Assembly: GCA_025929595.1 (NCBI GenBank)
Contig: JAICQA010000002.1
Span: 1-33,914 of the forward strand
Direction: 5' to 3'
Origin: Xanthobacteraceae bacterium
Lineage (GTDB): Bacteria; Pseudomonadota; Alphaproteobacteria; Rhizobiales; Xanthobacteraceae
Length of the DNA: 33,914 bases
The position numbers were made by a program, and so were the translations under genes. The notes below the pieces were generated by a model. That model was not told the origin of the DNA and ran no database searches. It saw nothing but the letters and a program-made list of their open reading frames with translations. Positions 10,630 to 20,612 of this stretch are shown here, one piece after another; positions within the stretch are counted from its first letter, which is position 1; each line of letters starts with the position of its first letter.

Positions 10630-11693
10630 CCCACGCAAAGCCGGTCAGGGTTCTCATCGTCGACGACTCCGCGCTCATGCGGAAGCTGCTGGCGGCGGTG
10701 CTTTCCGACGACCGCGAGATCGAGGTGGTCGGCACGGCATCCGATCCGTTCGACGCGCGCGACAAAATAAAGGCGCTCAATCCGGACGTGATCACGCTCG
10801 ACGTCGAAATGCCGCGCATGGACGGCGTGACCTTTCTGCGCAAGATCATGTCGCTGCGGCCGACGCCGGTGGTCATGGTCTCCTCGCTCACGCAGGCGGG
10901 CGCCGACATCACGCTCGAAGCGCTCGAGATCGGCGCGGTCGATTTCGTGGCCAAGCCCGTGGCGGACATCACCCACGCGATGGAAGCGCTCTCCGCCGAG
11001 ATCTGCGCCAAGGTCAAGATCGCCGCGCGTACGCGCGTAAAGGCGATTCGTCCGGCGCCCGAGCGACGGCAGCCGGCACGCAATCGTGTCGTCGACCCGT
11101 CCGCCAAGCTCGTCGTCATCGGCGCCTCGACCGGCGGCGTGGAGGCGTTGAAGGCGCTCCTGATGGATTTCATCGCCGATGGCCCGCCGGTCCTGATTAC
11201 GCAGCATATGCCGGAGCGCTTTACGGCGGCCTTCGCCCGCCGTCTCGACCGCGAATGCCCGATGCGGGTTTTCGAGGCCGCGCATGGCCAGCGGATCGAG
11301 CCGGGCGCCGCCTATATCGCGCCGGGTCAGCGGCATCTTGAACTCGTACGCGACGGGACGCATTTCGCCTGCCGCCTCACGGACGATCCGCCGGTGTCGG
11401 GCCATCGTCCGTCCGTCGACGTGTTGTTCCGTTCGGCCGCGCGTCTCGCCGGCCCGCGCACCATTGGCGTGATCCTGACAGGCATGGGCAAGGACGGCGC
11501 CGAAGGAATGCTCGAGCTGCGCAACGCGCAGGCGATCACGCTCGGCCAGGACGAAGCGACGTCGCTCGTTTACGGCATGCCGCGCGTCGCCTTCGAACGC
11601 GGCGCCGTGATGCGCCAGTTTCCGTTGAATGAAATGGCCGACGCCATCCTCGATGCCTGTGGCATCGATGCCAAGGCGACGGCGCACGCATGA
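10626..11693 (+). CDS. cheB: Chemotaxis response regulator protein-glutamate methylesterase CheB
   Basis: MTHAKPVRVLIVDDSALMRKLL receiver; LVVIGASTGGVEALK, ITQHMPERFTAAFARRLD, GVILTGMGKDGAEGM; ATGA overlap with cheD stop. Confidence 0.96.
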   Translation: MTHAKPVRVLIVDDSALMRKLLAAVLSDDREIEVVGTASDPFDARDKIKALNPDVITLDVEMPRMDGVTFLRKIMSLRPTPVVMVSSLTQAGADITLEALEIGAVDFVAKPVADITHAMEALSAEICAKVKIAARTRVKAIRPAPERRQPARNRVVDPSAKLVVIGASTGGVEALKALLMDFIADGPPVLITQHMPERFTAAFARRLDRECPMRVFEAAHGQRIEPGAAYIAPGQRHLELVRDGTHFACRLTDDPPVSGHRPSVDVLFRSAARLAGPRTIGVILTGMGKDGAEGMLELRNAQAITLGQDEATSLVYGMPRVAFERGAVMRQFPLNEMADAILDACGIDAKATAHA

Positions 11694-11703
11694 GGGGGAT
11701 GAA

Positions 11704-12477
11704 ATGACGACAGGGGGAACGGGAGCGGCCATCGTGCTGCCGGCCATGCTCGATCTATCGGCGGCCGAGGGCTTTCTCGCCACCATGTTGCAGGCGAGCG
11801 AATCGGAAGAGCCGGTTTGCCTCGATGCCTCGGCGGTCGAGACGCTCACGCTGCCATGCGTACAGATCATTCTGGCCGCGAAGCGCGCCGATAGCAGATT
11901 GACCGTCGCCGGCCCGACACCGGCGTTCCTGAGCGCCTTCGCCGACCTGGGGCTCTCCTGGGAAGACGGCGCCGGCCTGAACGCGCCGCACCCGCCGCCC
12001 GTGAAAACGCCTGAAGAACCGACTGTAGAAGCCGCCGCGGAAGAACCGATTTCAGAAACCGTCAGCGAAAGCGCAGCCGAAGCGCCTCTAACCGAGATGG
12101 ATACCACGGACATGGCAAAGCGAATTCTCACCATCGACGATTCGAAGACCATGCGTGACATGCTCATGCTGACCCTGAGCGACGCCGGCTACGACGTGCT
12201 GCAGGCGGTCGACGGGGAGGACGGCATTGAAGTTCTGGGCGACCGCAAGGTCGACGTCGTCATCACCGACATCAACATGCCGAAGATGGACGGCTACGGC
12301 GTGATCCGGAACCTGCGCGCCAATCCGGTGCACAAGGGCACGCCGATTCTCGTGCTCACCACCGAAAGTGACACCGAGAAGCGCAACTTGGCGCGCGACG
12401 CCGGCGCCACGGGCTGGATGGTCAAGCCGTTCGACCCCGACCAACTCGTCGCCACGATCCGCAAGGTCTGTCCGTAA
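11704..12477 (+). CDS. STAS domain-CheY receiver fusion protein
   Basis: In-frame ORF: N-terminal STAS-like region (VCLDASAVETLTLPCVQIILAAKRADSRLTVAGPTPAFLSAFADLGL), acidic/Pro/Ala linker, then complete CheY (MAKRILTIDDSKTMRDMLMLTLSDAGYDV...VITDINMPKMDGYGVI...MVKPFDPDQL). Confidence 0.88.
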   Translation: MTTGGTGAAIVLPAMLDLSAAEGFLATMLQASESEEPVCLDASAVETLTLPCVQIILAAKRADSRLTVAGPTPAFLSAFADLGLSWEDGAGLNAPHPPPVKTPEEPTVEAAAEEPISETVSESAAEAPLTEMDTTDMAKRILTIDDSKTMRDMLMLTLSDAGYDVLQAVDGEDGIEVLGDRKVDVVITDINMPKMDGYGVIRNLRANPVHKGTPILVLTTESDTEKRNLARDAGATGWMVKPFDPDQLVATIRKVCP

Positions 12478-12501: not shown

Positions 12502-14667
12502 ATGTCGAAAATTGACGAACTGAAGAACACCTTCTTCGACGAATGCGGCGAATTGCTGCAGGAGATCGAGAACGGTCTGACCGAAATGCGCGAAGGCCGC
12601 GGCACCGAGGATACGGTGCACGCGGTTTTCCGCGCGGCCCATTCGGTGAAAGGCGGCGCCGGAATCTTCGGCTTCGAGCGTCTGGTCGGTTTCGCGCATG
12701 TGTTCGAGACCGTGCTCGATGACGTGCGGCACGAGAAGCTCGCCACCAGCGACGAAGTGATGTCCGTCCTGCTGCACGCGGGCGACATCCTTGCCGATCT
12801 CGTCGGCATGGCGCGTGCGGGCGAGGAAGTGCCGCCCGGGTTCGAGGACGAGTGCCGCCAGGCGCTCGACAAGCTGGCTGGGATCGAGGAGGGCGGCGGC
12901 GGTGCCGCCGGCGACTTCGACGGCATCGACTTCATGCCGGTCGCCGCAGGCGACGATTTTGTGCCGGTAGCTGCCGATGGCTTCGACGACATGGGCGACC
13001 TGGGCGCCGCGCCCGGCGAGCGCACCTTCCGTATTTCATTCAGGCCGACCGCCGAACTGCTCAAGAAGGCGAACGAGCCGCTCTATATCCTGCGCGAGCT
13101 CGGCAAGCTCGGGCGGCTCGAACTGACGGCCGACACGTCGGCGCTGCCGCCGCTCGCCCAGATCCAGCCCGACAACGCCTATGTGAGCTGGACGGCGGTC
13201 CTTCATACCGCCCATGGTCGCCAGGAGATTGATCAGGTCTTTGAGTTCGTCGTCGCCGACTGCGAATTGAAGATCGTCGAAGACCAGCCGGTTGACACGG
13301 CGATGGAGATTTCGCCGATCGAGCTTCCCATTGCTGCCGCGCCCGAGTTGGCGCCGCAGATGGCGGCGCCCGCACCGATGCCCATGCCGGCGCGCGCGCC
13401 GGAAGCGGCCGAATCCAGGGAAGCGGGCAAGCCCGCCGCCAAGTCCACCGCCGGCATGACGACGCGCGTCGACCTCGAAAAGATCGACCGGGTCGTCAAC
13501 ATGGTCGGCGAGCTGGTGATCGCGCAGGCCATGCTCGGCCAGGTAGTGCGCGACCTGCCGGAAGACGTGGCCGGGCGCATCTCGCAGTCGCTCGAGGAGG
13601 TCATCCATCACACCCGTGAGCTCAAGGACAGCGTCATGTCCATGCGCGCGCAGCCGGTGAAGACCGTGTTCCAGCGCATGCCGCGCCTCGTGCGCGAGCT
13701 GTCCACGAAGACCGGCAAAAACGTGCGTCTCGAAATGTCGGGCGAGAACACCGAGATCGACAAGACGATCATAGAGCGCCTGAGCGATCCGCTCACCCAT
13801 GTCATCCGCAATTCCGTCGATCACGGCATCGAATCGCCGGCCGACCGCGTCGCGGCGGGAAAAAGCGAAACCGGCACGATCCGTCTTTCCGCGAGCCATC
13901 GCGGCGGCCGCATTGTAATCGAAGTGAAGGACGACGGTGCCGGCATCAACAACGAGCGCGTGCTGAAAAAGGCGCGCGAACGCGGCCTGATCGATCCGAG
14001 TGCCTCGCTGTCCGAGGACGAGATCAGCAACCTGATCTTCATGCCGGGCTTCTCCACCGCCGAAGCGATCTCCGATATTTCGGGCCGCGGCGTCGGCATG
14101 GACGTGGTCCGCCGCAACATCCTCGACATCGGCGGGCGCATCTCGCTCAAATCCGAGCCCGGCCGCGGCCTCACCATGCAGCTCTCGCTGCCGCTGACGC
14201 TCGCTGTCATGGACGGCATGGTCGTCGAGATTGGCCGCGACAACTATGTGATTCCGATCTCTGCCATCGTCGAATGTCTGCGCCCGTCGCGTTCCGACGT
14301 GCGCAGCCTGCTCGGCACGCTCGGCACGTTGCAGCTTCGCGGCGCCATCGTACCGTTGCTGCATATGGGCGATCTGTTTGGCGTCGGCGGAGCGCGTAAG
14401 GAAATTTCCGACAGCGTCGTCGTCATCGTCGAAGCGAGCGAAGGCGCGCGCCTCGGCGTCGTCGTGGACGAGTTGCGCGGCCATCAGCAGGTCGTGATCA
14501 AGAGCATCGAGGAGAATTACGGGATTGTCCCCGGCATTGCCGGAGCGACCATCCTCGGCAATGGCCGCGTCGCCTTCATCGTCGACGTGGACAAGCTCGC
14601 GAATATGGCGGGCGATGGCCGGGACGCGCCCGCGCCCCGCCCGGAGGCAAAAATGGTCGCGGCGTAA
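12502..14667 (+). CDS. cheA: Chemotaxis histidine kinase CheA
   Basis: Hpt box VFRAAHSVKGGAGIFGF; dimerization/ATPase region HVIRNSVDHGIE, ISGRGVGMDVVRRNI; C-terminal CheW-like regulatory domain. Confidence 0.97.
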   Translation: MSKIDELKNTFFDECGELLQEIENGLTEMREGRGTEDTVHAVFRAAHSVKGGAGIFGFERLVGFAHVFETVLDDVRHEKLATSDEVMSVLLHAGDILADLVGMARAGEEVPPGFEDECRQALDKLAGIEEGGGGAAGDFDGIDFMPVAAGDDFVPVAADGFDDMGDLGAAPGERTFRISFRPTAELLKKANEPLYILRELGKLGRLELTADTSALPPLAQIQPDNAYVSWTAVLHTAHGRQEIDQVFEFVVADCELKIVEDQPVDTAMEISPIELPIAAAPELAPQMAAPAPMPMPARAPEAAESREAGKPAAKSTAGMTTRVDLEKIDRVVNMVGELVIAQAMLGQVVRDLPEDVAGRISQSLEEVIHHTRELKDSVMSMRAQPVKTVFQRMPRLVRELSTKTGKNVRLEMSGENTEIDKTIIERLSDPLTHVIRNSVDHGIESPADRVAAGKSETGTIRLSASHRGGRIVIEVKDDGAGINNERVLKKARERGLIDPSASLSEDEISNLIFMPGFSTAEAISDISGRGVGMDVVRRNILDIGGRISLKSEPGRGLTMQLSLPLTLAVMDGMVVEIGRDNYVIPISAIVECLRPSRSDVRSLLGTLGTLQLRGAIVPLLHMGDLFGVGGARKEISDSVVVIVEASEGARLGVVVDELRGHQQVVIKSIEENYGIVPGIAGATILGNGRVAFIVDVDKLANMAGDGRDAPAPRPEAKMVAA

Positions 14668-14731: not shown

Positions 14732-15121
14732 ATGCCCCATGCAGCAGCACTCAAGGTCCTGGTCGTCGACGATCAAAACAGCGTCAGGCAGGTGATCCGC
14801 CTGGCGCTGGAAGAGATCGGCGTCCGGCACATTCTGGAATCGGAGAACGGCAAGGACGCGTTTGAAAAGGCGACGACCCAGCCGGTCAACCTGATCATCT
14901 CGGATTACAACATGCCGGAGATGGACGGCCTTGCCCTGCTTCGTGCGGTGCGCGGTCATCAGACCGTGCGCAAACTTCCGTTTATCCTTCTTACTGGCCG
15001 CGGCGATCGTGACCTTGTGGTTAAGGCCGCGCAGACAGGTGTAAACAATTACGTGGTCAAACCTTTCACGAATGCCGTGCTAAGGGAAAAAATCGAACAG
15101 GTCATGGGGAAGCTTGCGTGA
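14732..15121 (+). CDS. cheY: Single-domain response regulator CheY
   Basis: 129-aa REC: VLVVDDQNSVRQ, LIISDYNMPEMDGL, ILLTGRG, YVVKPF; AAGGAGGT RBS. Confidence 0.93.
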   Translation: MPHAAALKVLVVDDQNSVRQVIRLALEEIGVRHILESENGKDAFEKATTQPVNLIISDYNMPEMDGLALLRAVRGHQTVRKLPFILLTGRGDRDLVVKAAQTGVNNYVVKPFTNAVLREKIEQVMGKLA

Positions 15122-15564
15122 CGAGTACGAGTGCCGCGTCGAGATTGCCTGAGGAAGAATCCGCAAGCCTGCAGCCCGCCTTCTCCAGCGAAGGCAATCC
15201 CGGCGTCTTCATCGCCGGCGTGGCCGGGCTTCTGCGCGAGACCGTGCAGCGCTTCGAGGCGATCAGCAGCGGCGTATCCGATGCGGTGATGTCGCGCGCC
15301 GACCTGGCCGACCGCGAGCTCATCGTCACGTTGCAGGCCTTCGACCGGTTGCAGCAGGAATTCGTGGCCGTCGCCGACGTTCTGTCCCGTTACTCGGGCG
15401 CGCTCGGCGACCCCCTGGCCGACGGCAGCGGCCACGCGCGCGGCGAGGCCGAGGCGATCGCCACCATCGCCGTCTCCGACCTCAAGCAGCGGCTGCTCAA
15501 TCATTTGCAGCGCGATCGCAGCAACGAGATCGATCCCGCGCCCGGCGGCGAAGCGGAGTTCTAG
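15118..15564 (+). CDS. Small helical protein coupled to cheY; candidate CheZ/CheT-like phosphatase
   Basis: 148 aa; GTG start overlaps cheY stop (GTGA); predicted helical region TLQAFDRLQQEFVAVADVL contains DxxxQ. Confidence 0.6.
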   Translation: MTSTSAASRLPEEESASLQPAFSSEGNPGVFIAGVAGLLRETVQRFEAISSGVSDAVMSRADLADRELIVTLQAFDRLQQEFVAVADVLSRYSGALGDPLADGSGHARGEAEAIATIAVSDLKQRLLNHLQRDRSNEIDPAPGGEAEF

Positions 15565-16004
15565 GTTCGCCGCGCGTCGGTCAGCGACGCGCGCGCGACT
15601 TCCTTCCGCGCCAGCAAAAGCGCGTTGACCTGGTTTTCGATCGCGTCGAACGGGCAATCGACGCCGGCCTGCACGATGTCGATGATGTCGCAGAGATTGT
15701 TGGCCGCGAAGGTCAGCAGCTCAAAGCCCATGGTCGCGCCGACGTCGCGCATCGCGCGGCAGTGAACATGCGCCGCCGCGAGCCACTTGTCTTCGCTGGT
15801 TGCTTCCGTCTGTCCGGACGGAATCGCCGAGATCAGCAGTTCAAGCTGGCGGTCGAGCCAGTCGGCGAATTGCGGCTGCATCGTGCCGAGATGCGCTTCC
15901 GCCGATTGGATGGCCTGTTCGCGGGAAACGCCGCCGGGCCGCGTCACCAGCGAATGAAAACGGGTCGAGACGGGAATAATGGTGCCGTCACCGGCATTCG
16001 TCAT
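15561..16004 (-). CDS. Conserved-looking hypothetical helical protein, possible chemotaxis accessory
   Basis: 147-aa ORF; start lies 2 nt after the upstream REC gene stop; contains AAAHVHCRAMRDVGATMGFELLTFAANNLCDIID. Confidence 0.65.
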   Translation of the reverse strand: MTNAGDGTIIPVSTRFHSLVTRPGGVSREQAIQSAEAHLGTMQPQFADWLDRQLELLISAIPSGQTEATSEDKWLAAAHVHCRAMRDVGATMGFELLTFAANNLCDIIDIVQAGVDCPFDAIENQVNALLLARKEVARASLTDARRT

Positions 16005-16006
16005 GA

Positions 16007-16639
16007 CTAGCCCTTGCGCGCGAGATTGAGGAGCGAGTCGATGTCGTCCTGGCCCATGGCCTGGCCGCCCTCTTCAACGACGCTCTCATCGTTGTCCCCT
16101 TTGCGCCTGCCGACGCCGGTCGGATAGCCCTCGATCTTGAAGCGCCGGTCAGGCCCGAAGTAAGTCGGCGCATCGACGAAGCTGCGCGGATGGAAGGCCA
16201 CCCAGGCAAGCCGGTTATAGAGACTCGACACCGAGACGGGCTTCGCCACCACCATGTTCGCGCCCGCGTCCCGCGCGGCGTTGATCGTGTTGATGCGTGT
16301 GTCGCTCGTGAGGATGAGGATCGGGATGGTGCGGTACTCGCTGCTCACGCTCCCGCGGATTTCGTGCGTCAGCCTCAGCCCGCCCTCAGGCGGCAGGTTG
16401 GAGTCGCACAGCAGGAAGTCGATACGCTGCTCCACCAGCGTACGGTTCACGTCCATCGCACTGCGTGCTTCATAGATCTTCGTCGCGCCGAAGCTGCGCA
16501 GGATGCTCTGGCAGATCATGCAGAAATAGGAATTCGAGTCCGCGATCAGGAAATTCAGGCCGTGAAGATTGAGATGCTCTCTCGGCATTGCCGTATCGGC
16601 GACCCTGTCCTCGAATACCGTCACGGACAGGAGAATCAC
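16007..16639 (-). CDS. Response regulator receiver protein with C-terminal FliM-like peptide
   Basis: REC core FLLCDSNLPPEGG, ILILTSD, VVAKPVS; C-terminus GGQAMGQDDIDSLLNLARKG; true start may be the internal Met of MPREHLN. Confidence 0.82.
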   Translation of the reverse strand: MILLSVTVFEDRVADTAMPREHLNLHGLNFLIADSNSYFCMICQSILRSFGATKIYEARSAMDVNRTLVEQRIDFLLCDSNLPPEGGLRLTHEIRGSVSSEYRTIPILILTSDTRINTINAARDAGANMVVAKPVSVSSLYNRLAWVAFHPRSFVDAPTYFGPDRRFKIEGYPTGVGRRKGDNDESVVEEGGQAMGQDDIDSLLNLARKG

Positions 16640-19301: not shown

Positions 19302-20612
19302 TCAGGCGATACCCGGAACGGAGCGCGTGCTCTGCGCCGTGGTGTCGCCGCTTTGTGCGCCCCTGCGTCCAACCACCCGGTTTCGGCCGGCGAATTTCGC
19401 GTCATAGAGCCGCGTATCGGCGCTCGCGAACAGTGACGACAGGTTTTCGCCGTCATAGGGGCAGGTGGCGACTCCGGCGCTGATGGTCACCGGAAGTTTT
19501 TCCGCCGCCGAATGCGATTCGATCGCGCGCCGGAGCCGCTCCGCGACCGCGAGCGCCGTGTCGTGATTCATGCCGTCGGCAAGGATGACGAACTCGTCGC
19601 CGCCATAGCGGTAGATATTGTCGGAACTGCGCATGGTCTCGGTGAGCTTCTGGCCGACGAGTTTCAGCACCTGGTCGCCGGTCGAATGGCCGTGACGGTC
19701 GTTCGTGGCCTTGAAGCCGTCGATGTCCACAAGGATCAGGCTGATCGAGCGTCCCGCCGCGATCATGTCGGCGACGCGCATCGGCCCCTGCCGCTCCAGC
19801 CGCCCGCGGTCGTAAAGCCCGGTGAGGCCATCACGACCGGTCTGTTCGAGCAATTCCTGATAGCGCTCGCGGTAGGTGAGGGCGTCGAACACGTCGGCGA
19901 GCCGCGGACGGATTTCGAGCTTGCCGCCTTCGGCCTCGAACCAGCGCAGATACGCCCCGGTCATGCCGGCGAACACCGCTGCCGCCACCATTTTGCCGAT
20001 CCATCCGCCATACAGCACGGCGACCGGGACGTCGGCGAAGTAGTAAAGCGCGAGGAAGAATCCGACCTGGTCGAAGCTCAGCACCACGGCGGCGCTCAGC
20101 GCGATGCGCGCCGTCACGTTGCGCCCAAGCCACGAGGCCGATCGCTCGTACAGAAGAATGAGCAGGATGCTGTCCACGAACAGCAGCAGCGTGCCGAAGA
20201 TCATCAGCCCGCCCATTTGGTCGAGGAACGGGAAATCGGGTATCTGCTCCGGCGCCGGCGACACGATGTCGTGGTGGCGCATGACCCAGATCAGCGCGAC
20301 GATCAGGAAATTGCCGAACAGGAGTCCGTAGATCGGCTGCCGCACCGCCTCCGCGTCCTCGCGGATATAGAGCAGCAGCAGCATCACGAGCTTGCCCGAG
20401 AACAGGACGATCGAGCCGGGCGAGAGCGCCGTGCCGAACGGCGCCTGCATGTAGAATATGGCGGCCAGATAGGTCTCGAGGAAATGCAGGCTGCCGAGCG
20501 CGCAGACGAAGACGCCGAGCCCGAACTGGCGCCGCAGGCGGAACAGACCCGCCATCACGCAAAAATAAAGCGCTGCTTCCCCAAGCAGCAGGATCACATT
20601 GCCGTACGCCAC
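19302..20612 (-). CDS. Multi-TM GGDEF diguanylate cyclase
   Basis: Several N-terminal hydrophobic segments; DGLTGLYDRGRLERQ, SDNIYRYGGDEFVILADG; RSSD I-site-like motif 5 aa before GGDEF; GTG start. Confidence 0.92.
   Translation of the reverse strand: MAYGNVILLLGEAALYFCVMAGLFRLRRQFGLGVFVCALGSLHFLETYLAAIFYMQAPFGTALSPGSIVLFSGKLVMLLLLYIREDAEAVRQPIYGLLFGNFLIVALIWVMRHHDIVSPAPEQIPDFPFLDQMGGLMIFGTLLLFVDSILLILLYERSASWLGRNVTARIALSAAVVLSFDQVGFFLALYYFADVPVAVLYGGWIGKMVAAAVFAGMTGAYLRWFEAEGGKLEIRPRLADVFDALTYRERYQELLEQTGRDGLTGLYDRGRLERQGPMRVADMIAAGRSISLILVDIDGFKATNDRHGHSTGDQVLKLVGQKLTETMRSSDNIYRYGGDEFVILADGMNHDTALAVAERLRRAIESHSAAEKLPVTISAGVATCPYDGENLSSLFASADTRLYDAKFAGRNRVVGRRGAQSGDTTAQSTRSVPGIA

Follow-up and report, generated by a model that had tools for sequence, protein, structure and literature searches.

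The N-terminal peptide of FliM (FliM-N) and the C-terminal peptide of CheZ (CheZ-C) are established CheY-docking peptides. The CheY-P-binding region at the CheZ C-terminus has been described (PMC7750401), as has the CheY-binding motif of FliM in the portions of PMC5677366 considered here. The same portions (Nesper et al. 2017) define the arginine-rich motif of Cle proteins, of the [YF]xGPDRR type, and report that Caulobacter CleA and CleD bind the N-terminal region of FliM, with a dependence on c-di-GMP, and that the isolated CleA ARR without the C-terminal region did not bind c-di-GMP. Cle proteins do not need phosphorylation. We analyzed a stretch of 33,914 nucleotides from a Xanthobacteraceae bacterium (hereafter, the window) and found that it encodes a Cle-like receiver protein which ends in a peptide resembling both docking classes.

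The receiver gene occupies positions 16007–16639 on the minus strand and translates to 210 residues when counted from a mechanically assigned GTG; the true start is likely the ATG at 16588 because orthologs measure 193–196 residues. On the basis of Pfam, orthologs and AF2 models, the protein consists of a receiver (REC) domain, an arginine-rich region and a FliM-N/CheZ-C-like tail. Response_reg was its sole Pfam domain (residues 31–144, E = 4e-16), and this single CheY-like REC (16196–16558, minus strand) was well folded in the AF2 monomer model. It is followed by the arginine-rich region YFGPDRRFKIEGYPTGVGRRKGD (16094–16162, minus strand), located about 14 residues upstream of the tail peptide, by a variable linker of high entropy and pLDDT below 50 (16058–16093, minus strand), and by the tail motif MGQDDIDSLL (16028–16057, minus strand), predicted to be helical. 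The C-terminus encoded at 16010–16060 is AMGQDDIDSLLNLARKG, with translation through the stop codon ending in GGQAMGQDDIDSLLNLARKG. The sequence-only reading of this DNA had pointed to a FliM-N-like peptide at the end of a REC protein, and both the translation and the pattern shared with the FliM N-terminus bear this out.

With regard to phosphorylation chemistry, the receiver retains D12, D57 and K109 and has lost D13, the second acid of the pocket, which is S, P or A in all 21 tailed orthologs compared; an earlier remark that a single acid remains in the usual DD pocket, with the phospho-acceptor Asp and the Lys retained, was thus correct. Y106V is likewise present in 21 of 21, so that the residue set of a canonical CheY (acidic pair, phospho-Asp, Thr, Tyr106 and Lys109) is incomplete throughout. 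The loss of D13 and Tyr106 is consistent with phosphorylation being dispensable for Cle proteins. The face of the receiver differs from that of CheY by Y106V, A99R, V108A and K119R. The alpha4 Arg at CheY position 99 was found in 21/21 tailed proteins and also in 51/53 tail-less relatives, and is putatively equivalent to R113 of CleD. The arginine-rich region is near-invariant in the family. Its first repeat and terminal Asp were kept in every one of the 21 tailed orthologs; the second, sought as a tandem [YF]xGP[DE][RK]R, is degenerate (YPxGxGRR), and the affinity of the receiver for c-di-GMP is therefore uncertain. The best match to a profile of the arginine-rich region plus tail was the CleD ARR peptide (6sft, E = 0.0017; our E-values come from candidate-limited searches and hence are not global).

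The comparison with Caulobacter, which draws on parts of the text of PMC5677366 and on this one peptide, shows a single REC, a C-terminal [YF]xGPDRR arginine-rich region, a terminal Asp and an alpha4 Arg in common. Phospho-chemistry is weakened in both, and CleA likewise lies inside a che operon. The window receiver differs from the Cle proteins in its degenerate second repeat, in having an Hpt-like gene next to it, and in its conserved FliM-N/CheZ-C-like end, whereas the corresponding passages of PMC5677366 call the Cle C-terminal region only variable. Placement in the Cle family, together with assignment of the tail to the CheY-docking peptide class, is well supported by sequence.

The tail is rare in the genome and conserved among orthologs. 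The pattern Q-[N/K/D/E]-[D/E]-I-D-x-[L/F]-[L/F] had exactly two occurrences in the assembly (2.92 Mb), at the C-terminus of the receiver and at the N-terminus of FliM (AERVLNQDEIDSLLGF, containing NQDEIDSLL). A looser version, Q-x-[D/E]-I-D-x-[L/F]-[L/F], gave 70 matches in 21 related genomes (~97 Mb) versus 3 with the reversed control. Read in frame, the matches that fell into known classes came from FliM-N, the tailed receivers and CheZ C-termini, and the others were internal or inside unsupported ORFs. Among plausible proteins of the sibling genomes, only these receivers and CheZ had the motif near the C-terminus (within about 20 residues). A lack of conservation among orthologs had been named as a result that would refute the docking idea, and the motif proved conserved: Q197, I200, D201 and L203 were invariant in 21/21 tailed orthologs, position 199 was always D or E, and position 204 always L or F. 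Besides, pN/pS was 0.24 in the peptide versus 0.56 in the preceding linker and 0.64 after the peptide, a pattern which indicates that the peptide is under purifying selection. The tail has the core of a CheY-docking peptide, Q-x-[DE]-[IV]-D-x-[LI]-[LF], with a predicted helix, although of low confidence in the AF2 monomer (pLDDT ~52). Searches of the PDB with short tail peptides gave zero matches.

Comparison with the two docking classes gave a mixed picture. The tail shares the Q-x-[DE]-I-D-x-L-L core with FliM-N (LSQxEIDxLL), including the FliM of the same genome, but it is located at the C-terminus of a receiver and lacks a FliM domain. With CheZ-C it shares the C-terminal site, a flexible linker ahead of the peptide and the common occurrence of F at the last core position; unlike CheZ, however, the receiver protein has neither the helical bundle nor the DXXXQ active site. 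CheZ C-termini in sibling genomes included GHTSQDDIDKLFH and GHVSQADIDELFSGNN (that of E. coli CheZ is ASQDQVDDLLDSLGF), and the sibling-genome docking peptide SQDDIDKLF matched the receiver tail. Small position matrices for FliM-N versus CheZ-C origin placed receiver orthologs on both sides, and the tails resemble the two classes about equally. The assignment as a CheY-docking peptide is independent of which class is nearer because both dock CheY.

Among 150 sampled genomes of the same family, a tailed ortholog was found in 19 besides that of the window; orthologs also included one Hyphomicrobiales MAG. The che synteny was retained in nearly all tailed loci where the contig permitted viewing. 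Across 385 genomes sampled from the whole class, the tail was present on Cle-like proteins of 17 genomes from 13 other alphaproteobacterial families (for example, LSQSEVESLLGG, LSQDEVNALLS and LSQDEIDALFK; 3 were degenerate). Most other Cle-like proteins were tail-less, and the tail therefore marks a subset, although the search profile included the tail and the numbers of tailed and tail-less proteins represent a biased frequency. The tree was poorly resolved and required about 9 tail changes, of which at least 2 were forced; it did not uphold the tail as a single clade, and the tail may have arisen once or several times. No further tailed relative was found in plasmid records, where the Niveispirillum sequence examined was tail-less. 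One family copy (L058, 7159–8357), which lacks both che neighbors and the tail, is a receiver and Hpt-like pair located by sox-looking (thiosulfate oxidation) genes; this tail loss is a single event. In two other loci (L131 and L144) the Cle-like proteins end in DDSAVQNLLNEL and DESSVEELLKEL, possibly a divergent docking tail. In two genomes (G014 and G092) the tailed receiver and FliG were present and the FliM search gave no match, owing either to a gap in the assembly or to true absence.

The gene directly downstream of the receiver (15561–16004, minus strand) encodes an Hpt-fold partner without the phospho-histidine (pseudo-Hpt), recognized by AF2, structure search and its conserved position. 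Its model is a four-helix bundle (mean pLDDT 84), to which the nearest natural structures were CheA P1/Hpt, with a weak match (E 0.08, TM ~0.6). Of the 16 tailed loci examined, 15 had a partner homolog as the gene directly after the receiver, as did all 9 tail-less paralogs of the family, and the two proteins were fused in L100, L101 and L104; the pairing is kept across Alphaproteobacteria. The presence of the partner at tail-less relatives led us to reject it as the reason for the tail. Unlike Hpt and CheA P1, which the partner resembles in fold and through distant partners matching Pfam PF01627 (one with E = 5e-9), the window lineage lacks the phospho-accepting histidine: this column holds R in the window and R, Q, A, C or Y in the family, with one match that is an apparent alignment coincidence. 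Distant partners retain the histidine (HDIKGQGGSFGY), and distant relatives of the receiver mostly keep the DD pocket. Hpt-like genes by Cle-like receivers, L219–L232 and L022–L030 included, have kept the histidine in some lineages and lost it elsewhere. It seems that the module descends from a receiver/Hpt pair whose phosphotransfer chemistry was lost in the window lineage. No Hpt-like partner is mentioned in the Cle-paper passages used here. This gene, the Cle-type arginine-rich region and the equal resemblance to the CheZ C-terminus were absent from the sequence-only reading.

The receiver and partner genes converge on an opposite-strand chemotaxis operon that encodes three MCPs, CheR, CheD, CheB, a STAS-REC protein, CheA (12502–14667, plus strand; Pfam, synteny), CheY and a small DXXXQ protein. 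The CheY (14732–15121, plus strand; Pfam 6e-27) is canonical, with Y106, K109, F111 and K119 kept and the FliM-binding face intact. The small protein (15118–15564, plus strand) has no CheY-docking tail and gave no match in the Pfam search; its FDRxxQEF motif was invariant in 18/18 orthologs, and it is a candidate CheZ/CheT-like CheY phosphatase. The STAS-REC protein, which joins a STAS domain to a CheY-like receiver, is encoded at 11629–12477 (plus strand) inside the operon. A VUPS-GGDEF protein whose GGDEF motif is intact is encoded on the strand of the receiver, a few genes upstream (19302–20612, minus strand), and is likely an active diguanylate cyclase.

We favor, with confidence somewhat above even, the reading that this protein is a Cle-type c-di-GMP effector with an added CheY-docking tail, whose binding of CheY-P in trans would be gated by c-di-GMP. 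The tail would bind the alpha4-beta5-alpha5 face of CheY-P, the first candidate being the CheY of the adjacent operon. Binding of c-di-GMP at the arginine-rich region may alter the exposure of the tail and the seating of the receiver on FliM, and the receiver may compete for, deliver or concentrate CheY-P at the switch, holding it either away from FliM or near it, with a possible effect on rotation. Action in trans is favored because the face of the adjacent CheY is intact, that of the receiver itself has diverged, and the copy without che neighbors has lost the tail. Points that weigh against this reading are the degenerate second arginine repeat, the two genomes that gave no FliM match and the fact that the tail loss in L058 is one event only. 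The idea in the sequence-only reading that the peptide is of the CheY-docking type is well supported by sequence, conservation and context, and its suggestion of a sink or competitor is plausible; its suggestion of a phosphorelay adaptor is not supported in view of the loss of the phosphorelay residues.

The main rival, a real contender to which we give about half that credence, is that the tail acts in cis as a pseudo-ligand that blocks its own receiver at the FliM-binding face until c-di-GMP at the arginine-rich region, or FliM, displaces it and frees the protein for motor binding. Since Cle receivers bind FliM-N (parts of PMC5677366), binding of a FliM-N mimic is possible in principle; the linker is long enough, and the tail directly follows the c-di-GMP region. 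However, the four substitutions listed above make the receiver face unlike that of CheY, the AF2 monomer showed no confident docking of the tail, and many Cle-like proteins have no tail at all. It is improbable that the tail instead has some other receiver or the Hpt-like protein as its ligand (the STAS-REC protein, the REC of CheB or a head-to-tail Cle copy) in a complex unrelated to FliM competition: the operon does hold further REC proteins and the Hpt-like gene nearly always comes next, but the partner also adjoins tail-less Cle-like genes and the sequence match is specific to CheY-docking peptides. Very unlikely is a phosphorelay adaptor in which phosphate passes from CheA/CheY via the Hpt-like protein to or from the receiver. 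An Hpt-fold gene does adjoin the receiver, and distant relatives keep the histidine and mostly the DD pocket; however, in this lineage both the Hpt histidine and the second acid (Mg pocket) of the receiver are gone, and the adaptor role is not supported. Chance resemblance or a decaying tail, conceivable for so short a motif, was rejected as having negligible probability in view of the ortholog conservation, the selection and the reversed-pattern control.

Two inputs, c-di-GMP and chemotaxis, share a single motor switch, and the way in which they do so is an open question. In the case of Cle proteins, binding to FliM has been shown and the differing C-terminal regions have been left unexplained; a docking peptide on a subset of them offers a testable idea of competition or self-gating. 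We found no description of a FliM-like tail on Cle proteins in the open-licence literature, and the conserved Hpt-like partner is an extra component outside the discussion in the portions of the Cle papers used. We tentatively propose a sub-class of Cle proteins across Alphaproteobacteria in which a docking tail by the c-di-GMP site serves as a gated CheY-P trap or a self-gated motor ligand, and which work together with an Hpt or pseudo-Hpt protein dedicated to them. If true, this would connect c-di-GMP directly with chemotaxis signaling, a link that appears not to have been described, in which the receiver may link the level of c-di-GMP to the CheY signal that reaches the motor.
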